DNA of 64,000 bases from Apostichopus japonicus (Eukaryota; Echinodermata; Holothuroidea; Aspidochirotida; Stichopodidae), in the NCBI RefSeq assembly GCF_037975245.1, contig NC_092567.1, positions 22,837,376 to 22,901,375 on the forward strand, given 5' to 3'. Positions 1,945 to 62,390 of the stretch are shown one piece after another; position 1 is the stretch's first letter; every line of letters starts with the position of its first letter. The position numbers and the translations under genes are program-made. The notes under the pieces are model-generated. The model saw only the letters and a program-made list of their open reading frames with translations. It was not told the origin of the DNA and searched no databases.

Positions 1945-4900
1945 CTGTAAAGAGAATCGTTTATAGGTGATTTGTACGATCAGATATGAAAATACGTACC
2001 ACCCTAGCTTCAGTATATAGCAAGCAGTGTTGGGTCATATACCCCCTTATATGTTTTTTTTGTTCATTTATTGAAATTTGAATATACAGACAGGATTAAA
2101 GTTTACCAGGCCATATTGAGCCCTGACAGACCACTTTTTAAAATAAAAAATAAAAATAAAATAAAAACCCTGTTCCTTTAATCCTCCCTTTGTCCCTCCA
2201 CTGTTTATCTCCTACCTCTCCTCTTCCCCTGTTGCTTTCTTCTCTCCATCTGTTGTCTACTAATCCCCTTACATGTATCTCATTGTGTTCACCATGCTCA
2301 TTAACCTGTCTGTATTCTGTGGGTGTTTTTGTCCCTTCTGTTACTGTTACTTGTCATTTAGCCTTTGAAGAAGATCCTGCTAGGATCGAAACGTCATGCC
2401 AACTTACTTTTACACAGACCACTTTCTAGTTTGCAGTTGCACTAACATATTTTTACAAACTAATGAAAACCTATTTTTCATGTGATAATGCAAACTTCTT
2501 GGGCATTCCTACACTGGCACACTTATATTTTACCATCCTGGGGGCATAATTATTATTTCAGCCTCAGTGTTTACTTGTTTTTTCTAAACTATGTTTTCCC
2601 CTTTTCCACACATCAGATCTGACTCTGTTCACATTTCCGTTCCGTCACTTGCAATTCTTGACCCTCCACTGTCCCCAGGGTTTTTCAACGATGATTTAAT
2701 TTAATTCAAAACTGACTGTGTAGGGCCCCCCAAGGCCCGCTTTCATAATATTGACAAAAGCTTGATCTGATGTGGTTCATCATTTCTGCTACATGGTTTA
2801 TTACTATTCAGTCACCAGCCACTGCAACACTATGCTTATATCTATATACGTATTACATTAACCTGTCCCGAGTCACTGACATGTAAATCAAATTAGCCTT
2901 GAGCCAGTATGCACATGAAGGACATCTTGACAACTTTCTCTTTGCCTCACATTTCCTCAAAAGCTACGCTACCCCCTTGACTTGCCCCTATCTGTACATA
3001 ATTTAAATAACAAAGACGAAGATGTCAGGATTGAATACCAGGAACAAGAAATAGCGGTCTCGCTTTTCGATGTCTTTCAGGTAAGGTTTTCGAAACCCTG
3101 CGATTTATTTGATCATAAAAATAAACTTTCTAGCCTAACAAGGTTTTGTCACAGACACTTATCAATAATCCTTTTAAATATATCACACACAAAATGGGGT
3201 GTTAAAGGAGAGGTGTTTGATGTCAACAGAAATGTTGTCAGTTTTGTTCTCCTGTTTTAAAAATGACTTTGACAAGTTTAGCAATTGGACTACTTCAATT
3301 ATTGGTGGGTTTTAAAGAATGTAAGCAATACATGACTACCATCATGTTCTTACAGCTTCACTTTTCAAGGATAACTATCGTCTTTGGTGGTTCGTGTGAT
3401 GCATAGTTCTTGTTTGTCAAATGCTCTGAGATCCTTCAAATTTAGGCAAAGCATAACCACCGCCTCTTTACATTCTTTAGTTTATAAGAAAGAAAAACCA
3501 AACTCCAGAATATGTCAGCTTATAAATGAAAGTTTTTACAAGATTCCAAAAGTGCTCTTCAAGATATTATCACATATTTCACAAAGAGTTTTGTGTATGA
3601 GGATCATCACAAGAATAACGCTCTCATCACCGATGTCCAACAAGTGATGTTTAGTTCTTGTTTTGTCAAATGCTCTGAGATCCTTCAAATTTATGCAAAG
3701 CATATTCCACTGCCTCTTTACATTATTCAGTTTATAAGAAAGAAAACCAAACTCCAGAATATGTCGGCTTATAATCGAAAGTTTTTACAAGATGCCAAAA
3801 GTGCTCTTCAAGATATTAAAACATATTTCTCAAAGAGTTTTTCATCACCGATGTCACTTGACGAAAAAACTTCTATAGGAGATCGCCAAAGTTTGCACTC
3901 ACGGTTGATAAGGGTGTAGCACCTTGTAATAGAATATGTCAAGTAAGTAATTAAATTTGGCTGTATTTCATATTGGTGCTCCCTGCTATGCTGCCCTGAA
4001 AATGTATGTAAAGATAATCTGGAAGCTTTTGAGTTAGGACTTTAAAGTGATAATCAAATGAACAGATTTAGATCAGTAAAGAGACACAAAACCAACTTTT
4101 ATCTTTGGCTAATATATGATAGAGAATTTTGTGATGGACGAATCCTCCACACAGTTAAAACGCGTCTCAATCCAGTTGGGCGATACGCAATAGTTAATTT
4201 GTCTGTCATTTTGTAAAAACTGTGATGTGTTATTGCCGCTAGGATCTGTAAAACCTTTTAATTTCAAGGCAGAATTTGTTGGCATGCGGTCTTAACATTG
4301 ACCATCATTAAGCTTCACTAGTTTAGATTCAACATTTACAAAATCCATCTTCCATTACAGAAAATGCAAAAAAAATTAATCAGTAAACAATAGGAAATTG
4401 AAGAATACTTCCCCTGATGATGTCATAGTTTGATGATGTCATATGATGATGTCATAGTTTGATGATGTCATATGATGATGTCATAGTCTATGGTGTCTAT
4501 GATGATGTCATAGACTTGTTCAAGTCTTTGTGTGATGGAACCTGAAATCTTGGACATCTCCCAACTGGCATTAGATATTTCTTAGCTGTTTTTGGAAGTT
4601 GTTGATAACAGTTACCTCTATCACAAATATCATAAGGATGGGTGGGTTTGTGTCTCCTTTTTAAACATTATTTACCTTTACCAGCCTGTTAGGATAGTCT
4701 TCTGAATGTTACTAACTCTCTATACTGTCCTGCCATATCATGTTTCAAAGCACTCGTAATGACAGTACGAACAGTTCCTAACCTTTATCTGATTCTAATG
4801 CTAACACCACTCTATACTGTTATCTTGTACGATGCTTTAAAGCACTCATACTGACAGTACAAACAGTTCCTAACCTTTATCTGATTCTAATGCTGATACC

Positions 4901-7900
4901 ACTCTATACTGTCCTGTCATATCATGCTTCAAAGCACTCGTACTGACAGTATGAACAGTTCCTAACCTTTATCTGATTCTAATGCTAATACCACTCTATA
5001 CTGTCCTGTCATATTATGCTTCAAAGCACTTGTACTGACAGTATGAACAGTTCCTAACCTTTATCTGATTCTAATGCTAATACCACTCTATACTGTTATC
5101 TTGTACAATGCTTTAAAGCACTCATACTGACAGTACAAACAGTTCCTAACCTTTATCTGATTCTAATGCTAATACCACTCTATACTGTCCTGTCATATTA
5201 TGCTTCAAAGCACTCGTACTGACAGTATGAACAGTTCCTAACCGTTATCTGATTCTAATGCTAATACCACTCTATACTGTCCTGTCATATCATGCTTCAA
5301 AGCACTCGCACTGACAGTATGAACAGTTCCTAACCTTTATCTGACAGAAACATGATATTTCATACTGCTCATACTGTCAATACTAGTGCTTTGAAGCAGG
5401 ACATGAATGTACAGTATAGCAAAAAATTGTCACAACTGGGTGCCTTTTTTCCATATTTACAGACCATTTCAGATGGTTAATAACTATATTGGTTATTTCC
5501 TCATGAAAGAGTGCTTGTAAGTGATGAAGACGTCTCTTGTATATAAAGTTTTTATGTGCTAACACAACATTTATATCAAACATATTTGCCAAAATATCGA
5601 TTCAAATATTTGGTATCTTCAGAGTTAAGAGACTTACCTAATTCTAAGAATTCAAAGATTTTTGGTAGTATTTCCAAGCAGCCATCTTTCCAATCCTCTA
5701 ATCTTATTATCTTGACTTGGTCAGAACCGAATCCATCTAACCAGGTCCTGATAAAAGGTTCGTAGATTCCCGTCTTCAGCCTCTGTGGTGAGAAGAGAGA
5801 AAAAAATCAGAGGTTCCATTATTTACTGTCATTTGAACCTTAAAACAGTTAATGAGTCAAGTATAAGGACATATTATTATTCCTCTCATGTAATATTGCA
5901 AGAAGTTTTGTGTTCAGTGATGCTGTAAGGCTTATAAAATGCCATTCTTAAGGCCACTTGAGAAGAAAAAAAAACAAGGCTATCATAGTTTTACATTTAT
6001 TTCCATAATTGTTGTCATGGTTACAAGACCATTCTTTCAGATGATACAGCCGATATTGTCTAGTTTACATTTATTTCCATAATTACTGTCATGGTTACAA
6101 GACCATTCTTTCAGATGATACAGCCGATATTGTCTAGTTTTACATTTATTTCCATAATTATTGTCATGGTTACAAGACCATGCTTTCAGATGATACAGCC
6201 GATATTTGTCTAGACCTTGCGTAGTGACTTTGTATGCTGAAGGATACTGTATGTTAAGATTGCAATGCGTTTGTTACAGTCTGATGGTGCTGTAAATGGT
6301 TCTTGGAAGTTTGCCTTCCAGAGAGTGAACTTCACTGAATTAAAAATACTGCTTTATAGAAGCTAAGAGTATATTCTTGTGTAAGATAATCTTATAATTG
6401 GGTTGGTGTGTGGGTGGATATAAGTGTTACTGTTTTCTTGTATTGTTCTCTCTATTTACTTATGGGAGTGCTCTACTAGACAAGCCCTCTGGATTTTTGG
6501 AGTGCTTCCTTTCACAATTTTCCCTGTTGTTGATATGTTATGTCACTTAGTTAACTTCTCTGTACTTATATTGTGAAGAAACAAATAAATGAAATGAAAT
6601 AATGTGTTAGCCTAAGGTGAGCAGACTTGTACTATCACTGATCATTCCAAAATTTGTCGAAAGGTCCAGAATACTTGACCACAAAAAAAGGCCTGTTTCT
6701 AGAGAATGTATAACAGAAACTTGCACATATGACCATCATTTTGAAACAAAGCATACACTAAACAGTACTGAGATCTCAAATCCCACCCCTCCCTTACAAT
6801 GCATAGTATAGATGGTACCCTTAATGTCAACAAGGCGGGGGGGGGTCAAATTCAATATCATGTCCCTGGAATCTCTGAGAAAAATATGAAATATTAGCCC
6901 GTTACTGTAATTACTAATTCTGAATAAAACCGTGAGTGCTGATTTTAAGGAGCTTAGAATACATTAATATTTGATACGTACAATATTAAATATTCCTGTT
7001 AGTATGACTTTGTGCTGAGTGCTGCTTTAAAGGGGCTTTCCTCATCCCAAATGTAACCTTTAAAGCTGCACTGAAAATGAAATTGAACTACTCTGGTGAC
7101 ACCATACACTATACTAAATCATCAAACAAATGCAGCTGAAAATATCAAAATCCCAATTTGTTCTTTCGTTTAACAAATTGACACCAGAAATTAAATTATA
7201 ATTAATAGTAATGATAAGTGTAATTAAACTTCAAAACAGTTTGCAAATAACAATGAGAGGGAGAATATAATCACAATATTTCAACCTATTTGAAGCAATT
7301 TTTCAGAAATGGATTTAGTATTTAACTAGGAGCATCCAGACCCAAGCATTAATTAATTAATTAACAGTTCTTATATAACGCAACTTACAATAAAATCTCG
7401 CCGCGCTGTACTTAACCCTGGTCATTGGTAACTTGTCACACCTACACACCAAAGTGTGCACAATTCAAACAATCTCTCCTGGGGCACCACTGTGCACCAC
7501 AGCCATGTGTCCCCTGGGGGACTTCCCATAGGGTGCAGCCACAAACCGGCGCACGCAACTATATTTACAAGTCACCTCGCAAGTCCCAATTTATACACCT
7601 GGGTGAAGAGAGGCAATGGAGATAAAGTGCCTTGCCTAAGGACACAACGCAATGATCTGGCCAGGACTCGAACCTGTAATCCTTAGATCACAAGTCCACT
7701 GCCTTAACCACTTGACCACAACACCCTCCTAGCATAACAACTACATCCATCAAACTGCACGAGTAGAACCTTCTACTAGTCAAAATCACCCAGAGTTCAT
7801 CCAGCGTGTTTGCATGCTGGTGAGGGCTTTCAGGTGATCATGTTTATTTGATTCACAGATGGATAAGCAGCACAGGTGACACACATTAAGACCGATATTA

Positions 7901-16900: not shown

Positions 16901-19900
16901 TTCTGGATTTTCCAACTCACTACTATTTCAATTATATATATATATATATATTAAATTGGCTAATATATTTCATATTTCCACAATTCATATTGCCTACATT
17001 TTTTGTCTTTAGTGTGGCACTGACACCCTCCAGCCATGCCCCATGTTACCCTCCAGCCATGCCCCATGTTACCCTCCAGCCATGCCCCATGTTACCCTCC
17101 AGCCATGCCCCATGTTACCCTCCAGCCATGCCCCTTGTTACCCTCCAGCCCTGCCCCATGTTACCCTCCAGCCCTGCCCCATGTTACCCTCCAGCCCTGC
17201 CCCATGTTACCCTCCAGCCCTGCCCCATGTTACCCTCCAGCCCTGCCCAATGTTACCCTCCAGCCCTGCCCAATGTTACCCTCCAGCCCTGCCCCATATT
17301 ACCCTCCAGCCCTGCCCCATGTAACCCGCCACCCCTGCCCCATGTTACCCTCCACTCCTGCCCCATGTTACCCTCCACCCCTGCCCCACATTACCCTCCA
17401 CCCCTGCCCCATATTACCCTCCCTTTCCTGGCATATTACCCTCTTTCTAATCTTCCACGTTGGCTAGAACGTTGTGTCTATCTTGTAGTACAGTTTCTAT
17501 GTGCGGAGTCACAGTAGATCACAGTAGAGCCCTCGGAGAAAATTTGTTAAAGCTGGCAGTGTGAATAGTTGAATAAATCCTGGTTATATCATAAAAACGT
17601 TTTAATTTTCCGCTCCGTTAATTGTCTGAGTGTGCGTCCAGCTGTATCTTCGTAATCATAATATATTTCTTTTCGAGATATAACGGACCACTAACAACTA
17701 TAAATATATACTTGACCCCCCAAATCTAATAATTGTAACACTGCCTGTGGACGGACGTACGGACGAACGGACAACCGGATATCCTATATAGGCTAGTGCT
17801 ATACATACACACGTTTCCATATACACAACGTACATAAACCCAGCAAGAACTGAACGAAAAAATGGTGTGTTGTGAACAAGGTCAGCAATGAAAAAGACGG
17901 AATGCACGTAGTTCATATAAAAAAATATGCAAGACGCGTAGGATTGCAACTGGAATTTTCACGATAAGTTTCTATTTGTAATGGTATACTCTACATTAAG
18001 GTGACCATATTTTCCTGACTGAAATCGGGGACATTTATTGCGTGACTGATATGGGGGAGGGGTTTAAGGGGAGGGGGTGGTCCCCTCCCCTTTGGAAAAT
18101 TTTCAAGTGCCTAAGGTGCTTAGATGTAAAATGGTGATACTTAGAAGCACTTTTTAAGTCAATTTTATTTTCAAAAATGTAGCTTTTCCTTAAATGAAAT
18201 TCACTTACTTTACGTGGTTCTTTGAGAGCTTGTGATTTGCTCATTCTCACACTATAAGTGTCGTTGTGTCGCCGTAGTTGCCAATTATACAGTCGAAAGA
18301 GTGCTAGGCTAGATCGATCTAGCATATTTTTAACAGTGTTTCCACTTTACACTGGCCCACCTGAAATACTGGTTATAAGTTCCGTTCTGCGACTGCACAC
18401 TTGACTAAATTTTTTTATAGAATTATTTTACTAATAATGTGTGATATTTTCGAAATTCCTGAACATTTTGACGAATCGGGGACATTTTCGGGGACACTTG
18501 TTCATCGGGGACAGCACACTGTAATCGGGGACTGTCCCCGAAAATCGGGGACGTCTATGGCAAGCCATATGGGACAAACACTGCATAATATATCCGCGTA
18601 TTAATTGGAATTTATACGCGCATTAATTGGAATATATACGCGTATATATTATGAGCCAATCATATGGCTTAAATATATCCGCGTATTAATTCGAATATAT
18701 CCACGTATTAATTCGAATATATACACGTATTAATTCGAAAATATACACGTATTAATTCGAAAATATACACGTATTAAATAGAATACATATGGAGATTAAA
18801 TCCAATATATGCACGGATTAATTAGAATATACACGAAAATACAATTCCGCTCTTGCTGTGTACATATACCAACGATAAATGTTTTGGCGGGTTCGCGAGA
18901 TCGCTTTAAAAAGCGAAACTTTACACATGTACAATTAATACGCGTATATATTCGAATTAATACGCGGATATATTATGCGGTGTTTGTCCCACATGGCTTA
19001 CCATAGACGTCTGGTCACCTTACTCTACATGCATGTGTAGGCCTATTTACTAAATAGATGTGTCAATGCTATAAGTACCCGCGTTTCGGCAACATTCTGA
19101 AAGGCCAACTGATATCTGACGATAGATCTTGCGGTATAAGAAGATGGAAATCATATGGAATGACTATACAGGGAGTTTCCATGACAACCACCTCCATAAC
19201 AACTCCCTGGTATGAATATGTTCTGTCGTAGAGGAATTGAAGCCCATCCTACACTAAACCTCAGACTAGTATTGAGTCCACATTCGTGTTATCAGATTTT
19301 AATTTGATTGCGATTTTACCTCACAAAATGTATACTATGCTAAGTATCCCGTTTACGTTCACTCATATCAACACATTACTAGACCTACATCGGATATCCT
19401 ATTAACAATATAACATATACAATGAAATAAATGCAAACTAAGGGGGGAAGGGAGGGAAAGCGGCAAAAGATATCATATTTAAAATTTGTTCGTCGCGTAT
19501 GGTAATATATTATGTCGCTGTCTGAATCCAGGGTTCATATCAGCTGTATACTGTGTATAGGTTGTAGTATCATAATAACAGACTGTTGTGATTATAACGT
19601 CTGTGCATGATAGGCTTTTACGTACACGGGATGACGAGTCTTGTGGTTTTCCTGTACGTTTTATATAGATACCGGTATATATCGAATGGGTAGCAGCTAT
19701 ATCATTGGGGTTGTTATTGAACGTGCTCAGCGAACTGCAATGTTAGGTAATCCTGTGCGGACCAGGGACAGCCAACTCAATTTTCTGGCGGATAACAGTT
19801 GAAGAATACCGTATATGTATACTTCAAGAGCCACCTTTTTAAGGGACATGCCTTTGTCAACCTACCCCACCCCCCTCCCACGCATGCGACCCTCCAGCGA

Positions 19901-23410: not shown

Positions 23411-24000
23411 CATATCTAATCAATATGAATATTCAATATAGTTTTGGAACCAGTGTTTGCCATATCTAATCAAATTACTAATGATTATTCAATATAGTTT
23501 TGGAACCAGTGGTTGCCATATATGATCAAATTACTAATGAATATTCAATGTAGTTTTGGAACCAGTTCGTCATATCTAATCACATTACTAATGAATATTC
23601 AATATAGTTTTGGAACCAGTGTTTGCCATATCTAATCAAATTACTAATGATTATTCAATATAGTTTTGGAACCAGTGGTTGCCATATATGATCAAATAAC
23701 TAATGAATATTCAACATAGTTTTGGAACCAGTTCGTCATATCTAATCACATTACTAATGAATATTCAACATAGTTTTGGAACAAGTGTTTGTCATATCTA
23801 ATCACATTACTAATGAATATTCAATAGTTTTGGAACCAGTGTTTGCCACATCTAATCACATTACTAATGAATATTCAATAGTTTTGAAACCAGTGTTTGT
23901 CATATCTTATCACATTACTAATGAATATTCAATATAGTTTTGGAACCAGTGTTTGCCATATATGATCTCATTACTATTCATACATAAATATTCAATCTGG
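23411..24000 (+). repeat. 56-bp tandem array, about 11 copies
   Basis: Units start with CATATCTAATCACATTACTA and continue through ATGAATATTCAATATAGTTT to TGGAACCAGTGTTTGC. Starts are at 23411, 23461, 23517, 23571, 23627, 23683, 23737, 23793, 23847, 23901 and 23957. Block 23461-23626 is repeated almost unchanged as 23627-23792, a 166-bp higher-order unit. Confidence 0.92.
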
Positions 24001-29435: not shown

Positions 29436-30650
29436 ACACGTGACTTTCTTCTTAAGGAAAATCGATGCGCAAATGTATATTTCAAAGAACTTCTTGATAT
29501 AAGTGAAATTATGTAAACCTTACGGAAATCAAAAGAATTTCATCAGCTGGAAATGCTAGAAATGTGACTAATATGAAAGAAAATCAAGGACATTTGCTAA
29601 TGCATGGAGCGCAGGGAAACCATTTCAGTGGCGGATCCAGGATTTCGCCGAAGGGGGGGCCCAGATGGGAAATGCCTAATCGTCGTCCTGGGGGAGGGGT
29701 CTAAGGGGAGTGGGTGCCCCCTCCCCTTTGGGAAAATTTCACAAAATATGGAGGTCCTCGGTGCAATCTGGTGCTACTTTTCGTGAAAGTTTGGAGTAAA
29801 ATTTATTTCCAATAAATCATGTATTCATGGTTTGCCGGGCATATATTAATTTGGGAATTTCGAGCAATGAGCTGGGATATACGTCTTTGGGGAGTAGGTG
29901 GTGATGCAAATTACTTTTTACCAGGCTACTCCAGGCCATTTCATCTTGGATGCCCCCTTCCAGATGGAGACTATTGATGCAGTCAGAGTGCCCCTCTCAC
30001 CTTCACTTTTATCAGAATGATGGTGTACTCTTTTTGCAAATTTATTTTACAAAAAATTTCACGCACAGTGGCGTAGCTAGGATTTTTTGAGTGGGGGGGG
30101 GCCATGGGGGGCTGTTCTTTCTTGTGGGGGGGGGGCGGAGTTTACTATCTAAGCGGAGCGCCACCTTGGTTGGCGCGGAGCGTACAGAGAAAATTTGAGA
30201 TTTCAGCACCCCCCAGATCGCAGGAGATGGCACCTGTGAGGCAAAATAGCAACCAAAAAGATGTGCAACTTTGGTGACAGAAATGCAAAAAAAGTTTTTT
30301 CTCTTTCATGCTGACTGGCCTCGCCAACTCAGCCAGACTTTTAACTTGAGGGAAGTTGGCATCATTTGTCGTTTCAAGCTGTCAAGGCCTTTCTCCCAAC
30401 TCAAACCCCTGTGGGCTACCGGTAGATTTGCAGGATATGCCCACATGTGGACTTAAATAGCATTAGAGGAAGGGGGTGGAAGACTAACACGCATCGATGT
30501 TTCGGTAATGGTCCACATTGATGGCTCGGTGCTTATTAGGCCATTTATTGGGTTTCTTGAGGCAGCTGTCATCAGAATCTGGCTTTTTGTGCCAATCGAT
30601 GACCGATAACATGTATTGGTATGTAAATTTCTTCATCATATATCTAGCAA

Positions 30651-30878
30651 CACTCTAAAAACAAATGAGTGGATTTCATTCCATTGGAGTGATCACTCGG
30701 CGCACTTCAAATTAAGAGTAAAATTTAACTCTATTGGAGTTAACCCTCACTCCTAATATGAGTGAATATAACTCTATTAGGAGTTAAGATTTACTCAAAT
30801 GGAGTGGAAATTCACTCTTATACCGGAATGTGCTCAGTGATCACTCCCATGGAGTGAAATTCACCTATGTTTTTATCA
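30651..30878. mobile_element. Hairpin MITE inside element C, copy 1
   Basis: The ends CTCTAAAAACAAATGAGTGG and its imperfect inverted counterpart (CCTATGTTTTTATCAG) enclose multiple GGAGT/ACTCC words and GGAGTGATCACT near each end. The same module sits in C copy 2 at about 34496-34728, so it entered the C lineage before the two copies separated. Confidence 0.75.
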
Positions 30879-32231
30879 GTACAGTACAGTGCATATCATC
30901 ATAGACGTACGTACGTACTACGTACGTTCGTATATCAGACGCACTCGATACCCACGATACGATACGGTCCTGGAGAAACTATTTCCACTCATCATTTTTT
31001 AAGGCGATACAGTAGTGAGTATTGAACAGGCACAGCCGCATGCATTAGGGAAACAGTCCCCTTACAGCGAAGTTGCATTTCCAACCCGACCTCAAGCGGG
31101 GGAGCTCGGGTTGGGCTTATCTCGAGCTTCAGCTCTGCTTACACCACTTATCTTAACCCTATCACACGGACCAACGAACATGCGGTTTGCTCGCGGCATT
31201 AGCTAGTGTGTCAGCTATATGCAAATAATCAACAGATAAACGTTCACAGGCATGCACAGCTATAGCTACAGGCGTACATACAGTACTCGCGACATATGAT
31301 CGTATGAAGCGTATTCCGTGTCTTAGTTCCCTTTAGCTGCCGGTTCGGATTTTCGTGATTTTTATTCACCGGTTCCTGATTTTTCCGCGTCTGGCTTGCC
31401 TTTAATACATAACACCAGACGACCGCTAATTTTCATAACCGACGCTTGGAAATTTCCCAAACGTTACTACATCCAAACCTGAGATTTTCATGTGCCTCGA
31501 ATCCATAGCTATCGCATTAGGCCTAACGCTATGTAGTAACATTGAGAAACCGGCCTCTGAATACGGTCTATATTTTTGTTCAAATTAATGCTGCACAAGT
31601 AAATGCAATTTTTTTTATTAGAAACATCATTGGAGTTGTTTTTAGTTCTTATCATTCCTTTATATCAATCTGGAAACGTTAAACAGTAATCCTACACTAG
31701 TTACGTTGTCACTATTTACTTAGTTTGATTGGCCTAAGCTTAAATTTCTAATTGAGCTTGAATGGAGTTAATAATAGTGACGAACAAGGATGTTAAACAC
31801 TAAGTTCGGCATATTTTTTATTTGTTCATAAACGGAATTATATTGAACATAAGTACAAAATAACGTCGGAGTGTAAGAATTAGGTATTAAAATTAACATT
31901 TTGGTAAAGATTGAAGATGGATGATTTGTTTGAGATACTTTTTGAGATGGAAAGTTTGGGTAACTATTCTTGGCGCTTTACGGGCCATTAACACATCTAG
32001 TAGGTTAGGCCATTCGCTATTCATAAACACATGGTTACTTGGTACGGACAATTGTCATCTTTGGAAAATTTTTTGGGGAAATCCTTTTTCTTTTTCCGCG
32101 AAACTCCTGAGGTGGTTTAGTAGGGGCCTATACATACACAAGGATACATACAAGCCTTTGTTACATGCATGAGAAGAGTTGCATTAAGTACAATGTACCA
32201 ATTTTGAGGGAAGATAGGCTATTTCATTACT

Positions 32232-32400
32232 AGGGTTGTGCGGGATCCCGGTAGTCAAGTGAATACCGGCATCCCGATCCCGGCTTTGACTAACCCCGAT
32301 CACAGTGCAATGTGTAACTACTACCGGTATTGGGAAAACAACTGGTTATTACATTCGTTTCGGTATCATTCCCGGGAATCCAGGACATAATAAAAATATC
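32232..32400. repeat. Single hAT-like terminus remnant
   Basis: TAGGGTTGTGCGGGATCCCG followed by several CCGGTAT and ATCCCGG words resembles one end of a TAGGG-type hAT element. I find no matching opposite terminus nearby. Confidence 0.4.
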
Positions 32401-33850
32401 TACGTGTTACTATTTGAATTAGAGAAAAGAAAACACGTTTATTTCTGGTTCCTGTGTTCTTAGTTTGAATAATATCTTATCAATTTACGCACTGGCCTAG
32501 ACATATTAACGAAGTAATTTGGACCTATAGGCTACACCAAATATCGAACGTTAGTGAACTCAGCATGTTACGAGACCTCAAAGTTATTCAGAAATTTTCG
32601 TTATTTATTCTTCCTTCAAACGATGATTGTGAAGGTTCCCATGTACAAAATCTCACCCTTATGCATTTCACCACATTTTGTGATAATAATTATAACGATT
32701 TAATAATATTTGATCCAAAACCGAAGGGAGCATATCAAATTAAAACCATCTTCGCACGGGACTGTATATTATTATAGCATAGGGTACGGTACTGTTACAC
32801 ACTGCTGTTCGGTACTTGAGAGTTGATGCTGTAATGAAATAGATTCGTTTATTAATGCGGGGGGGGGGGGGTTCCACGATGTCATTTCTAGTTATCTTTC
32901 GCTACTTTTTTTATTTTTAAGAACTTTTGTACGAAGATTGATATTGTACGTATTGAAAGTATATTTTCTGGAGTAAACAACAGCCGATTAACGATATAAA
33001 TAAATCTGTACTATTCTTATATATGTAGTTTATAATCCCGTATTTATGTAGCCCCTAAGTTACATTATTGTTGTCTGAAGTTCCAAACAGGTGGGGACTT
33101 GTTGATAGTTAAAAACCTTTCATTGTGAACTTTTAAACTTAAAGTATTAGTAGTAAGTCGAGTCCTGTCTTTCCGACATGCTTAGTGATTCCCGTTAAAT
33201 TAAATTGAATTTAGGTAAAAATTCATGCAAACTAGGTAGGCATCGGCCGATCCTAATTCTAAGCCTACATCGAAAGTTACGCCGTATACACCTCGCAAGA
33301 AAACCACGATAACCTTGAATGAAAAAACAATATTTTGCACTTGAAGATCTGTCTTCCCCCAAAATGCAATGATAAGGTCTAGACTCAGTACTTCTTGATA
33401 CATTGAGTTTCCAATTACTAGTCAAAAACATTTTCTGGAGAAAAAAAACGTAAGATATTTTTCACAAAAATTGATGATTAGATAAGTGCTTCCTCACAAT
33501 CAACGAGCCGCCCCGAAATTCGCTCCCCTTACGTAAAACTTCTATATATATTACACGTGGAAAAACACGAGTTTTTACACACATAATTCCCATTGACATT
33601 GGTCACGGAACATAAGTAGGTCATCGACATTCGAACTTGGCAACTTGCCCAAGTTCATCGCACCATGGGAACGACCCAACAGATTGAACATTATGTTACA
33701 TTTTCACGCCATCTGGACGCCGATTGTAATTTTTGGTGTAATATGCAAATTATGAATGGTACTGCCCTTGGTTAAAACTTAAAACTATTGCGACACATAC
33801 AAATTTTGGGAAACTGTTGTATAGAAGAAACTTTTGTATCAAATGTAAAG

Positions 33851-35746
33851 CAGGGGCGGATCCAGGGGGGGCCCCGGGGGGCCCGGGCCCCCCCTTTTTG
33901 AAAATCCTGATTTTTTTTTTTTTTTTTAATTTTTTTTTACCGCGTTCGAGGGAAAGTGCCCCATGCGTGATCAGTGGCGTAGCTACGGGGGGCCTGAAAT
34001 TGCAGACATGAGATCCATATTTTCAGGCTAGGTACATGCTGCTTAGAATACTCGGGAAGTGCCGTTTCCGGCCATCTGGGGGGTTTGTAAAGCCAAAAAT
34101 TTTCTTGTACGCTCCGCGCCAACCGATGATGGCGCTCCGCTTAGATAGTCTTACGTTCAGGCGCGGCTGGACCAGTCAGACCCCCCCCCCCCCCTGTCAC
34201 AAATCCTGCATCCGCCCCTGATATGTCATTGAATATTCCACAAAACAACTTTTTATGTCCACGAAACTGCCGAAACATGATTTTCACTACTGGTAGAGAT
34301 ATAAAATATTGGGAATTCTGAATTTCCTGCAAACATGCGGCTGTGCCTGTTCAATACTCACTACTGTATCGCCATAAAAAATGATGAGTGGAAATAGTTT
34401 CTCCAGGACCGTATCGTATCGTGGGTATCGAGTGCGTCTGATATACGAACGTACGTAGTACGTACGTAGGTACGTCTATGATGATATGCACTGTACTGTA
34501 CTGATAAAAACATAGGTGAATTTCACTCCATGGGAGTGATCACTGAGCACATTCCGGTATAAGAGTGAATTTCCACTCCATTGGAGTAAATCTTAACTCC
34601 TAATAGAGTTATATTCACTCATATTAGGAGTGAGGGTTAACTCCAATAGAGTTAAATTTTACTCTTAATTTGAAGTGCGCCGAGTGATCACTCCAATGGA
34701 ATGAAATCCACTCATTTGTTTTTAGAGTGTTGCTAGATATATGAAGAAGAAATTTACATACCAATACATGTTATCGGTCATCGATTGGCACAAAAAGCCA
34801 GATTCTGATGACAGCTGCCTCAAGAAACCCAATAAATGGCCTAATAAGCACCGAGCCATCAATGTGGACCATTACCGAAACATCGATGCATGTTAGTCTT
34901 CCACCCCCTTCCTCTAATGGTATTTAAGTCCACATGTGGGCATATCCTGCAAATCTACCGGTAGCCCACAGGGGTTTGAGTTGGGAGAAAGGCCTTGACA
35001 GCTTGAAACGACAAATGATGCCAACTTCCCTCAAGTTTAAAGTCTGGCTGAGTTGGCAAGGCCAGTCAGCATGAAAGAGAAAAAACTTTTTTTGCATTTC
35101 TGTCACCAAAGTTGCACATCATTTTGGTTGCTATTTTGCCTCACAGGTGCCATCTCCTGCGATCTGGGGGGTGCTGAAATCTCAAATTTTCTCTGTACGC
35201 TCCGCGCCAACCAAGGTGGCGCTCCGCTTAGATAGTAAACTCCGCCCCCCCCCCCACAAGAAAGAACAGCCCCCCATGCCCCCCCACTCAAAAAATCCTA
35301 GCTACGCCACTGTGCGTGTAATTTTTTGTAAAATAAATTTGCAAAAAGAGTACACCATCATTCTGATAAAGTGAAGGTGAGAGGGGCACTCTGACTGCAT
35401 CAATAGTCTCCATCTGGAAGGGGGCATCCAAGATGAAATGGCCTGGAGTAGCCTGGTAAAAAGTAGTTTTCATCACCACCTACTCCCCAAAGACGTAAAT
35501 CCCAGCTCATTGCTCGAAATTGCAAATATATGCCCGGCAAACCATGAATACATGATTTATTGGAAATAAATTTTACTCCAAACTTTCACGAAAAGTAGCA
35601 CCAGATTGCACCGAGGACCTCCATATTTTGTGAAATTTTCCCAAAGGGGAGGGGGAACCCACTCCCCTTAGACCCCTCCCCCAGGACGACGATTAGGCAT
35701 TTCCCATCTGGGCCCCCCCTTCGGCGAAATCCTGGATCCGCCACTG
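33851..35746 (-). mobile_element. TIR element C, copy 2, intact and inverted (1896 bp)
   Basis: It starts CAGGGGCGGATCCAGG and ends CCTGGATCCGCCACTG, with exact 5-bp duplications TAAAG at 33846-33850 and 35747-35751. It is the reverse complement of the two parts of C copy 1 joined, with scattered mismatches and length changes in G or T runs. It sits inside element X. Short frames across it occur in both copies but encode nothing recognisable. Confidence 0.92.
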
Positions 35747-37261
35747 TAAAGTACTGTATGGTAGGCCTACTATAATTTATAAAAGACGGTTTTCCTCAGG
35801 TGATAAGGAAAAGGGATGTTTCGATGAGCTCGATCTCTTTGTATAGTACTTGGATACTTAAAATGACCATGCTGTACATGCAGCTTCTATTTCTCTTTAA
35901 GTAAGCTCTACTTAGCATTGTTATCCGTTGTGGATCTTTATTGGAATAAATAAGAAATGTATTTTTTGACGCCAGTATTTAACGGTAGGCCTAAGCATTT
36001 CTTAAATTGTTGACTGAGCTTCAAAATCCATTTTCAAAAAGTCTGTTTTCATGAAGGTTTTGTAAAATCGACATATAGCTAGGGTAGGAAAATATTAACG
36101 AAAGTTGTTCTATTATACAAATAAAATACATGTTTCTCGTACTGAGATCTGAAGGGAAAAAACGGGCGGCTATCGTTCTTCTTTTCATGCGCTTATACTA
36201 GTTTGGAATATGTGGCAACCTTTACGTGATTTCAGAAATGGCTCTTGTTCTTGGAAAAATGACTCCCAGTCATTATTCATTTTCTTATATTAATGTTCTT
36301 ATTATTATTGTATATTATTATATTTTTCATTTCACTATTGGTTATGATACTTCAGGTCCTCGGGAGAAGTTAGCTTTACGCTAACCGAGTTAAATATACG
36401 GAGATTTGATCACGGGTGCCAATTTGTATCTACGGATCCCCTTAAAATAACATTCAATGCTAACAGCATCCTCCTATTCTTATGAGGCGAATAGCACATA
36501 ATATCAATAGGATGGTCGGAGGGAGGTACCTTAGATTATGAAATTGTGTTGCGGGCGCTGAGCGAGTGTATGGAGGGCCCGAATGCCCGACATTTTTATT
36601 TATTCGCATTTTTATCCAGGGTTGCTTATTCAGCAAAAGCTGATTTCAAATAAGGCCCTGCTTTTTACATTCAACGTTATACATAAAAAGTAAAACATAG
36701 CAATACAAAAACAATTAAATGTACAGATACAAAACAATTAAAGCTGTAAAGTGGAGACAACTACAAAAAAAAAATGGAAATAAAAGAATTATCAAAAATT
36801 GGGCTTGCAAATAATAACTGGAAAGTTTTGGAAACCAACACTATGCTAGTTATTTCAACATGCGCGTTGAAACTTTCGATACCCAAGAGCTGATATAATG
36901 TAATAGCTGAACAAAGCCCAGGAAGCAATATAAAAAAAAAAATATTGTAAAAAACAGCAAATAAGATTCATAATGCAAAAGTTATCATTGTAATCACTCT
37001 TTGGTGAAAGGATTGGTGTGCCTACGACATGAAATTGAAACACAGTAGAAGACTTTCAGTTTATCTCAAATAGTTTTCCATCCAGTTCACATGCATCATG
37101 GACTCGCAATAACATAAAGAATATAATTTTGCCCTTCAGCTATGTATTTGCCAGGCATAAAGCTGACACATCAACCTTTTGTTTAACTGCTTTTATATAA
37201 GCAGATACAAGAAAACGGACTGAGAAAGATTGTATTTTAACAGAGTCGGTGTTGTTTCACA

Positions 37262-37366
37262 AGGGCGTAGGAACCGGGGGGCTGGGGGCGCCAGCCCCCC
37301 CCCGCACCCCCCTGTGAAAGATATGGAGGGGCGGAAGTATCATTCCGCCCCCCTCCCCCCGCTTCG
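37262..37366. repeat. G/C-run element terminus within X
   Basis: AAGGGCGTAGGAACCGGGGG followed by C-rich runs and GAGGGGCGGAAGTATCATTC looks like a degraded terminus of another TIR element. No partner end was found. Confidence 0.35.
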
Positions 37367-38639
37367 CTTTTCTGTCATCCTAAATCTGTGTTATTATTTA
37401 TATATTACATAGAAACATAGTTACAAGATAGTTGAGGTCTTGACATGTACAGAGATGAGTTTTAAATGCAAGTCTTCCACTCAACACAGTACATGTTAAG
37501 AAGTCAATATCATTTCAGCTATACACTCTATACTGTCTTGATTGCTCATTGAAGTGCATATAATCCCTTATGTCCTGTGAAACTGGTTTAATTAAATTAG
37601 TTCGCATAAGCGATCTTGTGGTCATTCTTATCTTGCTCATCTTACAAAACCTGCTCAACCATGTGTGGTATAGCCAGATAAGCAGCCACTTTGCAACAAT
37701 TCAAGTGGAAAATTTTGCACCTTCGGTGTAAGGGGACTGTTTCCCTAATGTTTGCAGGAAATTCAGAATTCCCAATATTTTATATCTCTACCAGTAGTGA
37801 AAATCATGTTTCGACAGTTTCGTGGACATAAAAAGTTGTTTTGTGGAATATTCAATGACATATCAGGGGCGGATGCAGGATTTGTGACAGGGGAGGGGGT
37901 CTGACTGGTCCAGCCGCGCCTGAACGTAAGAATATCTAAGCGGAGCGCCATCATTGGTTGGCGCGGAGCGTACAAGAAAATTTTTGGCTTTACAAACCCC
38001 CCAGATGGCCGGAAACGGCACTTCCCGAGTATTCTAAGCAGCATGTACCTAGCCTGAAAATATGGATCTCATGTCTGCAATTTCAGGCCCCCCGTAGCTA
38101 CGCCACTGATCACGCATGGGGCACTTTCCCTCGAGCGCGGTAAAAAATTTAAAAAAAAAAAAAAAAATTAGGATTTTCAAAAAGGGGGGGCCCGGGCCCC
38201 CCGGGCCCCCCCCCCTGGATCCGCCCCTGCATTTATTTATATGCTTGGCCCATCGGTAGTTTATGTGTAGCTCACAGTGCCATGTTATACGCATTCATAA
38301 CACACTCCGAAACCCGCCTCTGCTGCTATAGAACCTGCATAATATGCCCTTTAAAACACGTTTCATGTGTCTTATTGGCCCTTTCGAGTTTCAGAAAACT
38401 GAAATCTTACAAAATCTAAAGAAATTGTCAGGTCCATCTAAAGAAATGGGATTCTGATTTATGGAAGCACTGAATGTAAGTCCCGCTATGGTGCTAGTCT
38501 GCCAGACGCAGTCGGTTGGTACGTATTTAGTAGAATGGAATCGAAGTACTATTGGAAATACTACTTAAAGGCATTGAAGACTCGTACAACAACGCGTGCA
38601 GGGCTCTGAAATCAAATTAACTTTCCGTTGCTAGCAAAT

Positions 38640-39067
38640 GACGTTTCCTTCTTGTCGCTACAAAGTTAAAGTTAAAGTTGAAGGTTTACAGTCTTGTATG
38701 CGGCTAATGCCTCCTCACACGACTTTACAACTTAACCCCTGGTCATTGGTAACTTGTCACACCCACACACCAAAGTGTGCACAATTCAATCAATCTCTCC
38801 TGGGGCACCACAGTGCACCACAACCACGTGTCCCCCGGGGGCCTTCCCATAGGGTGCAGCCACAAACCGGCGCACGCAACTATATTTACAAGTTACCTCG
38901 CAGGTCCCCATTTATACACCTGGGTGAAGAGAGGCAATGGAGATAAAGCGCCTTGCCCAAGGACACAACGCAATGATCTGGCCAGGGCTCGAACCTGTAA
39001 TCCTTAGAACCTGTAATCCTTAGATCACAAGTCCACTGCCTTAACCACTTGACCACAACGCCCTCCC
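38640..39067 (-). mobile_element. tRNA-derived SINE, family B, full length
   Basis: On the minus strand the head near 39067 has an A box (TGGTCAAGTGG) and a B box (GGTTCGAGCCC), the same body as 7395-7730, and a tail of repeated AACTTT near 38665-38680. A 16-bp stretch of the head (CCTGTAATCCTTAGAA) is duplicated at 38993-39024. It is preserved better than the intronic copies. Confidence 0.88.
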
Positions 39068-52127: not shown

Positions 52128-53496
52128 TTTGACGAACTAGGTCTCACCGCCACTTAGCAGCAAAAAGTTAGCATATATCTACAATACGGAAGTGGTAACA
52201 TGTAAAAATTATTGGTGCCGATAAAGCGTTTTTCTGTTGATTTGGAACAAATGAACTTCTTTACAACGATCTCACGAAAATTGAATCCATAACTTGTGGT
52301 AATCACTATCTTTCTTTCTTGATTTCCGGTTATAGCTAGCTTAACTGTGGATTAGCCAATGCCTGTCGGTGTTATTCATTACTGTTGTGTTAGTAATGTT
52401 TGCCTGTAGGCAGACTAGGCTACACAGCCTACAGTTAGTCCTACACATGTAGCCTAACCTGAATTAATAGTAGTACAGTACATATACGTAGTACTAACGT
52501 TGTAAGAGTGCTTGTAATAGTAATACTAATATTAACACCAAGGCTAGCACTACTACTACTAGTAACTTTCATGAAATTACTAATACTAGGCTTAACCCAT
52601 TTCACACATTTTTTTGCTGAAATATTGCTTGTAGATTGTTACAGTTTCTCCTTGAGATTTGTATAAAGTGTCTTTAGTCTACCAAGGCCAAAATTATAAC
52701 TGATAGTGATAAGGTAAACTAGTAACACTATTACTTAGTAAAAGTTAGGCTTAGACTTACACTAGGGCCTGATTTCAAGCCCTCTACTTCTAGTTTTAAT
52801 TTTACATACTTACTAGGAGTAATTACCCTTACCTAAACCTTTTTTCTGCAGTAGGTAAATAGTACTTGGATTAATTGCAGAATACCCCGCAACTTTGAAG
52901 CAACACCCATAAGAAAGGTTGGCGACTGCATCGGTAGGCAGTCTAGGCTAGCAATAATATTCAGAGAGAAATGCCAACAAATGTATCAATGTATCATGTG
53001 TTGTGGCTACACTGTAGGTTTATTTATGCATAGGGAAGTTCAATACGAAGAGGGATGCCAAAAAGAATCTTAAGTTCAATGTATTATGCTGTTGTGGCTA
53101 CACCGTCTACACGGTTCCTCTTTTCACCATTCCTTTTAAGAGCGACCCAACACAATTATTACAATGGGACAAAATTAAAATTAAGCATAAGGAAGTTCAT
53201 TATGAGGAGAAATGCCCAAAATAAAAGTTTTAATGCATTATGCTGTTGCTTTTCAATTCGACATGATGTGTAAAATTTAAATTCCTTACTGCCTGAAACA
53301 GCCAAATCACTCAGTTTATAGAATGTGAATTTGAACAAGTTTATTATTATAATTAAACAATGGTTTGTGAGATATGAAAGAGTAATAACAATTATTGTTG
53401 TATGTTCTTTTCTTTCCACAGCGCTTTTCACATTATTACGGCTGCTGTCTGAAACAAAGCAAAATTGTAAGCTAATCGGGACCATCAAAAGTCACC
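52128..53496. promoter_or_regulatory. Divergent intergenic region between NDUFA9 and TXNL4A
   Basis: The two genes are transcribed away from each other with 1.37 kb between start codons, so this region should hold both promoters. A splice-acceptor-like TTTCTTTCCACAG ending at 53421 sits 75 bp before the TXNL4A ATG and suggests a spliced 5' UTR. I see no TATA box at an obvious place. Three diverged copies of a GAGAAATGCCAA..TATTATGCTGTTG segment occur near 52965, 53050 and 53200. Confidence 0.45.
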
Positions 53497-53925
53497 ATGT
53501 CTTACATGCTCCCTCATTTGCAGAATGGATGGCAAGTAGACCAGGCAATTTTATCTGAGGAGGACCGTGTGGTTGTTATACGATTTGGGCATGACTGGGA
53601 TCCTACCTGTATGTCCATGGATGAAATTCTCTTCAAAATTGCGGACAAGTGCAAAAATTACGCGGTATTTTTCTTGGTCGATGTGTCTCAAGTGCCGGAT
53701 TTCAACAAAATGTACGAGTTGTACGATCCTTGCACTGTTATGTTTTTCTACAGAAACAAACACATCATGATTGATTTGGGTACTGGAAACAACAATAAAA
53801 TTAACTGGTCTTTGGAAGATCCTCAAGAGATGGTTGACATTGTTGAAACAGTTTACAGGGGTGCAAGGAAAGGAAGAGGTCTAGTGGTGTCACCTAAAGA
53901 CTATTCAACAAAATATCGATATTAA
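53497..53925 (+). CDS. TXNL4A: Thioredoxin-like protein 4A (DIM1), U5 snRNP component
   Basis: 142-residue frame from ATG (context CACCATGTC) to TAA, the exact length of the family. It encodes a spliceosomal thioredoxin-fold protein of the U5 and U4/U6.U5 snRNPs required for pre-mRNA splicing. Family hallmarks are all present: MSYMLPHLQNGWQVDQAIL, VIRFGHDWDPTCM (no CxxC redox pair, as is normal), VDVSQVPDFNKMYELYDPCT, FFYRNKHIMIDLGTGNNNKI and the C-terminal GLVVSPKDYSTKYRY. The reading frame is uninterrupted, whereas vertebrate orthologues have coding introns. It could be a native intronless gene or a retained retrocopy; lack of any defect and an upstream splice acceptor favour a working gene. 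Confidence 0.97.
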   Translation: MSYMLPHLQNGWQVDQAILSEEDRVVVIRFGHDWDPTCMSMDEILFKIADKCKNYAVFFLVDVSQVPDFNKMYELYDPCTVMFFYRNKHIMIDLGTGNNNKINWSLEDPQEMVDIVETVYRGARKGRGLVVSPKDYSTKYRY

Positions 53926-59946: not shown

Positions 59947-61272
59947 TTACTCTTCAAATAAATATTTTGACGCTTCTCTTTCATTGTATTTTCCTCTTAG
60001 TGCAGAATACATGCCGATGTGTCGGAATATATTGGGCGATATTAGATACTGTCGTAGTCCTCGTTGAAGGCGATAATTTTCCAGGGCGAAATCGAGGGGA
60101 TATTGACTGTTACAGTGTGTATGTTTGAGGAAGCCAATCACATAAGGAGCTTGTCCAGCAGGAAACAGCACTGCTGGAGTACAACACGACGTTCCCGGTC
60201 CAAGGCTGTAAAAATGTTTGGAATAACTCCTGAGATATGTGAAATATGGTCTTTCCAAGATCACCAAACAGGCAAAAACTAAAAGAAAACTAAAAGCAAA
60301 TACTAAGTATAACCAGGAACCGTGGTAACCGCGGTTCTCTTCCACATCATTGCGTAACCTACACTGATATACAATATGAAGTGCGAGGGTGAACGAACCG
60401 GACACAAACAGAGAGAGAGCTACCCACTCTATAGCAAAGTACCAATTTCGCTCAAAGAATGACAAGTTGTCGGGAAAGTTGAGTTTCAACCACAACCATT
60501 CTTCGTCGTTCTCGACCAGTTCTCCTGCCTTTATGGTCGTCTCTAGTTTGGTCCGTAAGACGTGTTCTAATACTTGGTAGAAATCCAAGTGAGGGAGGGC
60601 ATCGTCTTCGACTAAAATCACATACTTTGGCTGAAAGTCCAAGGCTTCTCTGAGACAGAACATGTAATCTAATTTCTCCTTCTCGTGTTTCGCTTCGAAT
60701 ATAAAAGAGCTCCTGATGTACTTTATTCTGTATGGAAATAACGTCGTCAAGGCTTGGAATTCCTTATGAGTCTTGTGATAGGGGTCTACGTTGCACATGA
60801 AGAGAGCCGTCTTCGGTATCGCATCGTTAGCAGTGAGGACTTCATGGAGTCTAGCCATCACCTGTGTCAGGTACATTGGCTTGTCTTTACCCCCCGATGA
60901 ACCTCTTTTCGTTGTTATAACGCCGATGGCAAAACGAGGGCAGCACGTATCTTCATGCTGCTCGTATAAGGCTTTAGTTTTCGCTGGATCTAACGTCTGA
61001 ATAAAGTTTTCTGCATTTTTAGTACGGATGGAGTTGTAATTCAGTGCATTTGAAAAGTCCCCGATTCTATTCCTATAGAGCTTACAGTAAGGCAAATTAG
61101 TACACACAAATGGTAAGAGTAGTAAGAGTACAAATGCATACACTGCAGTGACCACCACTAACGTCCTTCGAATATGCCACAGTCCTCTCAGAGAGTCACA
61201 AACCACCCAACCAAACCAACCTCTTACAGCACAACGAGGGGACATAGGCCTGCTGAAAATAACCTTGCTCAT
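59947..61272 (-). CDS. PGAP4: Post-GPI attachment to proteins factor 4 (GPI-GalNAc transferase)
   Basis: 441-residue intact single-exon frame, starting ATGAGCAAG and ending EASKYLFEE. PGAP4 (TMEM246) is a Golgi glycosyltransferase that adds the GalNAc side chain to the first mannose of GPI anchors. Visible features are an N-terminal membrane segment at about residues 37-57 (LVVVTAVYAFVLLLLLPFVC), a GT-A-like domain with VEDDA around 221-225 (the DXD-type metal/UDP site), and then two more hydrophobic segments at about 280-303 and 322-342 that split the catalytic domain, a hallmark of this protein. The cysteine-containing block GPGTSCCTPAVLFPAGQAPY and the HIGMYSALRGKYN tail also fit. Human PGAP4 has 403 residues and a single coding exon as well. 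Confidence 0.94.
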   Translation of the reverse strand: MSKVIFSRPMSPRCAVRGWFGWVVCDSLRGLWHIRRTLVVVTAVYAFVLLLLLPFVCTNLPYCKLYRNRIGDFSNALNYNSIRTKNAENFIQTLDPAKTKALYEQHEDTCCPRFAIGVITTKRGSSGGKDKPMYLTQVMARLHEVLTANDAIPKTALFMCNVDPYHKTHKEFQALTTLFPYRIKYIRSSFIFEAKHEKEKLDYMFCLREALDFQPKYVILVEDDALPHLDFYQVLEHVLRTKLETTIKAGELVENDEEWLWLKLNFPDNLSFFERNWYFAIEWVALSLFVSGSFTLALHIVYQCRLRNDVEENRGYHGSWLYLVFAFSFLLVFACLVILERPYFTYLRSYSKHFYSLGPGTSCCTPAVLFPAGQAPYVIGFLKHTHCNSQYPLDFALENYRLQRGLRQYLISPNIFRHIGMYSALRGKYNEREASKYLFEE

Positions 61273-62390
61273 CTTCAGATGAATAAGCTACCACTGAATG
61301 GATATGTCCTCACTATAACCTGGGTTGATTTTTGGTGGGCTGCCACTGCATGGAGCATATCCTCAAATATTCTGGCTTTTATTGAACAGCCACTGCCCTG
61401 CATCATTCCTCTCAATAACCTGAGTTTGAAGAACAGAGAATGAAGAAAAATATAAATCCTCCTACATGTGAGTCACATATAGAACTGGAATCATACCATG
61501 GCTGTCATAAAAAAAATTAAAAAAAATCATTCTGATTGTTAATGTTTTGGAAGAATTTTGTGGGCAAGTTTCTTCAGAAAGCTAATTATTTGTAAAATTT
61601 TCCTTCCTTTCATCAGTTTAGAAGGAAAGTAGGAAAAGGATGGGTCTGATGGGATTATACCAAACAAACCTTAACCTTTAATTTCTCAAACCTTTGCACA
61701 GGCATATTAGCTTTGAGGTTGTGAGAACTGGATACAAATAAAGTGGTGATTTGGACGAAAATGCTATCGGTGATTAAAATCATGTCACCCTATTAAGATC
61801 TGACATTAAATTTGAGTAGCAATAGAGGCCACATAATTTAGTTTCCATCCAGTCTCAAATGAACACAGTCAAACCCTTATTTGTTATGCACTGTAAGTCC
61901 CAATATATACTGGAATAAATTAAGCTATTTTGGTACTGGACATAATCCTACTTTGCTTTCATTATTTCATAAATATGCCTGCATAAGTTACCAGTCACGT
62001 TACAGTAGTAAAGATTTGATAGAAAAGGAGATTCTTTCAAGCCTTTGTTTTACCTTCTGAAGCTTTTGGACGGAGGGGAGACGGATGACAGGTTTTGTCA
62101 ACAAATGCGGGGTGTGGTATCTGCTTATACAGTGCTTAGACTAAATAATAGGTACTTTGGTAGTTTGGTATGATCTCACATTATACAGTTAATGCAAAGC
62201 ACTTTGGCTTCTGACTGACATCCTCAGACCCGCTCCCAGTCTCCTCCCCCCTGTGCCCTCTCCCCGGTCCCCCATGAAAGAAAGGGTTTAACAAGTATCA
62301 GCACCAACCAGCGGCTGAGGTAGCTGGTTCCTTTGCACTTCAAGCCAAAAAATTTGTCTTTGATTGTAAGAGTTGCTACAAATGGGTGTT
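61273..62390. other. Upstream flank of PGAP4, nothing else recognised
   Basis: The first ATG of PGAP4 is preceded by ordinary AT-rich sequence that may hold a 5' UTR exon and promoter. Short plus-strand frames at 61174-61443 are shadows or chance. Confidence 0.35.

Follow-up and report, generated by a model that had tools for sequence, protein, structure and literature searches.

Architecture of the nest

The stretch analysed here, referred to as the window, comprises 64,000 nt of contig C7 of Apostichopus japonicus (C7:22837376-22901375; genome 671.6 Mb, 35 contigs). It contains a three-level transposon nest, in which a copy of an element that we call C (C1) is split by a second element, X, and X in turn holds a complete copy of C in opposite orientation (C2). 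Labels such as C2:23.1 or C1:17.2 give the contig and the position in Mb, and C1 and C2 standing alone denote the two copies of C. The nest is real in the assembled sequence: the split of C1 and the inverted C2 lie at the coordinates given in the original prediction, both copies of C are bordered by the exact 5-bp duplications it had named, and the X junction it had placed at 31042/37751 was correct to approximately 1 base, with the inverted ends present (Table 1). A chance arrangement is excluded, because at least 38 further matches to C were obtained, and the end pattern of X gave 74 matches vs. 0 for its control. Three-level nesting of transposons is ordinary in animal genomes; the feature that sets X apart, and that is unusual, is its lack of a fixed target-site duplication.

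Table 1. Features of the nest, numbered from the first letter of the window (TIR, terminal inverted repeat)
Feature	Positions	Strand	Basis
Left 5-bp target duplication of C1, CATTT	29621..29625	+	C1 flank comparison; exact 5 bp in 7/7 other C copies
C1 left part, hAT5-like non-autonomous element, end CAGTGGCGGATCCAGGATTT	29626..31042	+	
Start of D, older hAT-like element within C; end CAGTGGCGTAGCTAGG, flank TTCACGCA	30066..31042	+	ends also in other C copies
Imperfect palindrome (hairpin) within C	30659..30874	+	
X including C2, non-autonomous TIR element placed in C1, 0-bp duplication	31043..37750	+	
X left TIR, CATTAGGGAAACAGTCCCCTTACA	31043..31066	+	end-pattern scan
C2 target duplication, TAAAG	33846..33850	+	
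C2, complete inverted C copy within X	33851..35746	-	
C2 target duplication, second copy of TAAAG	35747..35751	+	
X right TIR	37727..37750	-	
C1 right part; D end at 38108, flank ATCACGCA	37751..38229	+	
Right target duplication of C1, CATTT	38230..38234	+	

The sequence CATTAGGGAAACAGTCCCCTTACA was present at both ends of X, which measures 4807 bp after subtraction of C2 and of one TAAAG copy; solo X elements are approximately 4.8 kb long. The alignment proposed in the prediction, that of C1 with X removed against the reverse complement of C2, gave 1857 identical and 22 different positions in 1879 aligned columns (98.8%). The alignment had 11 gaps, each 1-5 bases long, and one of those with 5 bases is an artefact of C1 having been trimmed at 31041/37755. 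The hairpin, a putative separate MITE insertion, was located in both copies, as had been expected, with arms at 30659-30758/30775-30874 in C1 and 34506-34605/34622-34721 in C2, and its folding energy was -52.8 kcal/mol vs. a shuffle mean of -19.7 (z -11.2). A distance of 4.2 kb between the near arms of the inverted copies is one value among several, the gaps between matching arms of C1 and C2 spanning 3.3 to 5.7 kb. The large foldback that these copies might form is conceivable, and no indication of a function for it emerged.

Element C is a 1.9-kb composite with CAG...CTG ends (CAGTGGCGGATCCAGG and CCTGGATCCGCC(A/C)CTG) and 5-bp duplications. At least 38 further places in the genome matched its left 1.4 kb, the best 40 of 2008 candidates having been scored. 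Exact 5-bp duplications were found in 7/7 further copies having both ends examined, and the same seven carry an uninterrupted CCGCATGTTTGCAGG at the point where X splits C1. The C family is young. It is not a simple element: the ends of the hAT-like D lie inside C, with near-matching 8-bp flanks, so that C was already a nest. Judged from these ends, D appears to be the product of an older insertion that the examined C copies now share. No D-less C was seen among the best 40 of 559 candidates, in which only the left part aligned, the right part being of low complexity. Two reading frames from C had no Pfam match near the curated cut-off. We take the CAG...CTG ends to be of hAT type. The hAT transposons with 5-bp duplications are described as the hAT5 group in excerpts of PMC12730594. 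C shares the 5-bp duplications (in C1, C2 and the seven others) and the CAG...CTG ends with this group but differs in lacking a detectable gene and in holding the older element D.

The X family and its target joints

For the genome-wide scan of X ends, up to 2 mismatches were allowed and a control pattern was run alongside. The 74 matches, 67 of them without any mismatch, resolved into 32 complete elements and 10 unpaired ends. The inverted repeat extends over 35 bp at 94% identity, with 24 bp identical at both ends in most copies, and the terminal octamers were identical in 62 of 64 ends (exceptions were the right ends of C11:7.80 and C12:22.2). Such precise inverted ends in 32 dispersed, paired-end copies are those expected of a TIR DNA transposon. 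The family is young. Eight left halves, from the window and the seven best-listed matches, differed from each other by 0.07-1.3% and from their majority sequence by only 0.32-0.64%, which indicates that X moved recently, while older relatives at 81-88% identity (L090, L091, L092 and L096) indicate persistence of the lineage. Another X-derived element, L081 (C18:12859000-12866500), is rearranged and carries an inverted duplication of 1.8 kb (97.4% identity) in its interior; similar pieces lie at three other places on C18 and were probably spread by segmental duplication.

Paralogous empty sites were available for 11 X copies, and their joints were read by letters. The target duplication was 0 bp at six, 1 bp at three and 2 bp at two of these sites, and no base had been lost or added at any of the 11 joints. 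In the window, where the duplication is 0 bp, C2 supplies the empty site, as the prediction had recognised, and so do seven other C copies; the seven paralogues were all read by letters. Joints of 0 bp were likewise found at C21:0.24 (18 paralogues at 100% identity), C20:1.1 (17 paralogues), C1:17.2 (6), C9:0.12 (7) and C6:4.03 (1, a repeat unit lying close by that differs in a G run). At C9:0.12 a two-base length excess stems from a CA repeat lying outside the joint, and a 2-bp loss read there from coordinates was rejected as this difference in repeat length. The duplication was 1 bp at C2:23.1 (38/40 paralogues of the length expected), C19:31.5 (30) and C11:7.90 (1), and 2 bp at C2:21.4 (1) and C2:30.89 (2). 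The target at C2:23.1 is a reverse-transcriptase frame that is open only with a 1-bp joint. The cleanest duplications outside base runs were those at C11:7.90 (G) and C2:30.89 (AT).

The base touching both ends of X was equal in 19 of 31 copies (shuffle mean 8.8, p 5e-5), and therefore short duplications are commoner than expected by chance. A duplication of at least 3 bp fits none of the 31 copies and one of 2 bp fits three, while for 12 of the 32 copies no duplication length from 1 to 12 bp is compatible with the flanks. A fixed 1-bp duplication was ruled out by the 0-bp joints at C20:1.1, C1:17.2 and C9:0.12, where the flanks match by chance. Where TIR transposons have a target duplication of constant length, that of X is 0, 1 or 2 bp, and no target motif was detected in the 32 copies, as no position from -10 to +10 departed from background (smallest p 0.08). 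X, nested as described, has exact ends, empty sites and dispersed young copies, with a variable 0-2 bp outcome at its joints.

Paralogues of X target sequences recur together at a spacing of 168-227 kb near contig ends (C19:31.26-32.38 Mb and C20:0.25-1.39 Mb), and further clusters lie on contigs C4, C11, C14 and C21, with constant marker offsets of 10.72 kb and, mostly, 72.8 kb. This points to a giant tandem array, built of ~170-230 kb units and common to several chromosome ends. The X copies at C21:0.24, C20:1.1 and C19:31.5 have their target sequence in this putative array. At C3:7209157-7212044, the PHD-finger-like repeat that is the X target at C1:17.2 is split at almost the same point by another insert, ~2.7 kb long; query positions overlap there by 8 bases, which would agree with an 8-bp duplication.

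Order of insertion and surroundings of the nest

The genome search for other copies that the prediction had called for found X elsewhere without C2 and with a single TAAAG. In 30 of the 31 other paired X copies the sequence continues without a break through the C2 site, as judged for 28 by coordinates (including C11:12.7 to within two bases) and for two, C7:4.16 and C19:11.0, by letters; the remaining copy is C8:29.7. The single TAAAG was read by letters in 13 distinct X copies, and a 14th, C21:0.24, has a single TAAAG site with one adjacent base changed. The C2 insertion is present only in the X of the window among the X copies examined, which would, if anything, speak for C2 having inserted late and in place.

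As X lies inside C1, it is later than C1. The private substitutions and the tree were obtained from an alignment of 23 copies and 1401 sites; the C copies in an earlier distance set were those closest to C1, biasing its distance low, and 14 copies were added later. C1 had 1 private substitution and C2 had 4. In the tree, C1 grouped with L007 and L003 and C2 with L101, L104 and L108, so that neither arose from the other by local copying. The order of events that had been read from the window holds in part: X came after C1 and the depth of nesting stands, but the placing of C2-into-X before X-into-C1 is not readable from the sequence, 1 vs. 4 private substitutions being too few to settle it. C2 may have entered X after X already sat in C1.

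Elsewhere in the window, a complete intronless 149-aa frame at 53476-53925 (+) matched Pfam DIM1 (E 1.2e-66) and is possibly a retrocopy. A 446-aa open frame at 59947-61287 (-), which we assume to resemble PGAP4/TMEM246, had no Pfam match. Minisatellite arrays were seen at 4718-5344 (92-bp units), 17025-17422 (23 bp) and 23425-23976 (56 bp), and a 272-bp repeat occurs at 7416-7687 and, with 95% identity, at 38737-39008, approximately 0.5 kb to the right of C1.

Integration of X compared with known systems

We consider it likely that the locus is a nest of young non-autonomous DNA transposons in which X is a trans-mobilised TIR element with near-blunt, 0-2 bp integration. X itself was probably mobilised, as a non-autonomous TIR transposon, by a putative transposase that acts almost bluntly. 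We infer that a transposase rather than repair made the joints and that a variable stagger is the source of their variation. A putative transposase would mobilise X in trans and transfer its strands into the two target strands nearly bluntly, at nicks 0, 1 or 2 bp apart; gap filling after staggered nicks would then leave a duplication of 0, 1 or 2 bp, at sites with no detectable motif.

X has no detectable genes; eight of the 15 frames of at least 60 aa in one X copy had no Pfam match near the curated cut-off (best E 0.026 for the frames of X and C together). End-pattern scans with up to 2 or 3 mismatches revealed no coding partner among the fetched loci, only X copies, fragments, older relatives and chance matches. 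Two 19-kb segments with X ends were rejected as autonomous partners: C2:30886155-30905489, fetched whole, is a 4.8-kb X split by retrotransposons, and X pieces were mapped to C16:30191561-30210738, the sequence of which was seen at its ends only. Five fetched loci with unpaired X-type ends proved to be right-end X fragments of 73-410 bp adjoining other DNA, and L093-L095 had no match to X beyond the end pattern. The X copy covered by L045 and L046 (C2:30885900-30905700) has grown to 19.3 kb by retrotransposons with frames of 1250, 977 and 496 aa, which are presumably Ty3/gypsy-like. The partner of X may have more divergent ends, be missing from the assembly, or be lost.

Several points weigh against near-blunt integration by a transposase. 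No transposase with X ends was found, which leaves the class of X unproven. The empty sites at C11:7.90, C2:21.4 and C6:4.03 each rest on one paralogue, and that at C2:30.89 on two lying close together on the same contig. At C19:31.5 the extra base falls in an A run and at C2:23.1 in a short A run, so that a change in run length could mimic a 1-bp duplication; C2:21.4, with TT beside TT, is similar. Lengths of paralogues were mostly taken from coordinates, letters having been read in 1-4 paralogues per site (seven in the window), and three less similar paralogues of C21:0.24, known by length only, differ by 1-4 bases. Among the 20 copies compatible with a duplication of 1 or 2 bp, empty sites were obtained for 10.

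It is possible, though we regard it as doubtful, that X belongs to the PHIS group (Spy/ISL2EU/Harbinger) and merely chooses its targets loosely. Excerpts of PMC12730594 give duplications of 0, 2 or 3 bp for Harbinger-related transposons, and those of PMC4482050 describe Spy as leaving none. The same excerpts of PMC4482050 give Spy a strong preference for AAATTT, whereas AAA|TTT and AA|TT each occur at 0/32 X sites. ISL2EU is described, in excerpted text, as duplicating 5'-AT-3', but AT was found at only one of the 11 resolved X sites; moreover, there is no transposase by which X could be placed in the group.

Near-blunt joints of variable length without a target motif are also what would be expected if X fragments had been captured bluntly at chromosome breaks, by end joining and not by a transposase. 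We consider such an origin improbable: end joining usually trims or adds bases, whereas X ends were full-length in 62/64 cases with no deletion or filler at 11/11 joints, and nothing was found that would explain the release of X with precise ends.

Insertion of Helitron/Helentron, Crypton or DIRS elements needs A|T, T|T or shared target bases, and Helitron tips lack inverted repeats. The prevalence of 0-bp joints (6/11) would suit an element of Helitron/Helentron or tyrosine-recombinase type, which leaves no duplication. This is very unlikely for X, as it has matching inverted ends, 1- or 2-bp duplications at 5/11 sites, T|T at only 5/32 and A|T at 3/32 sites, and no internal repeat of its ends beyond the 35-bp TIR. 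Least credible of all is an assembly artefact or a local duplication-inversion in place of three insertions, as a duplication or an empty site of its own marks each level of the nest, and C1 and C2 have other closest relatives in the tree of 23 copies.

Near-blunt integration by a transposase, to return to the reading we prefer, bears on how such elements are recognised. Each superfamily of DNA transposons is assigned a fixed target-duplication length that is used in diagnosis, and X, if the reading is true, breaks this pattern. A young, precise-ended family with 0-2 bp duplications would escape structure-based annotators that demand a duplication, or be mis-filed by them. X also suggests a transposase that would integrate almost bluntly and without regard to sequence, and this property is of interest for genome tools. 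Tentatively, X could represent animal DNA transposons of a group so far unrecognised, whose transposase would cut its target almost bluntly, with a stagger varying from 0 to 2 nt and no preference for sequence, outside the constant-stagger rule for TIR transposons. No description of comparable 0-2 bp integration was found among the open-access papers listed, nor any paper on transposons with 1-bp target-site duplications. As support for novelty this is weak, and X should be called new only with orthologous empty sites and a transposase in hand.

Integration of the Spy type is the nearest published case. Like Spy, X has inverted repeats and is without a duplication in at least 15 of 32 copies, by flanks or empty sites. 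Excerpts of PMC4482050 describe the lack of a duplication in Spy as constant, in contrast to the 0 bp (6/11), 1 bp (3/11) and 2 bp (2/11) of X, and its target preference fails in X. For PlavakaB, of the fungal CMCT group, excerpts of PMC12730594 report variable duplications of 2 or 3 bp and termini starting with CAT (CATCA..TGATG); compared by description only, X has 0-2 bp duplications and ends CATTAGGG..CCCTAATG, and resides in an animal-type genome. The KolobokP composite-like transposons, as described in excerpts of PMC9587614, have inverted repeats, include echinoderms among their hosts and show duplications whose length varies by a single base (3-4 or 4-5 bp). X differs from them in its shorter duplications and in having no long terminal direct repeats, self-comparison revealing the 35-bp TIR only.

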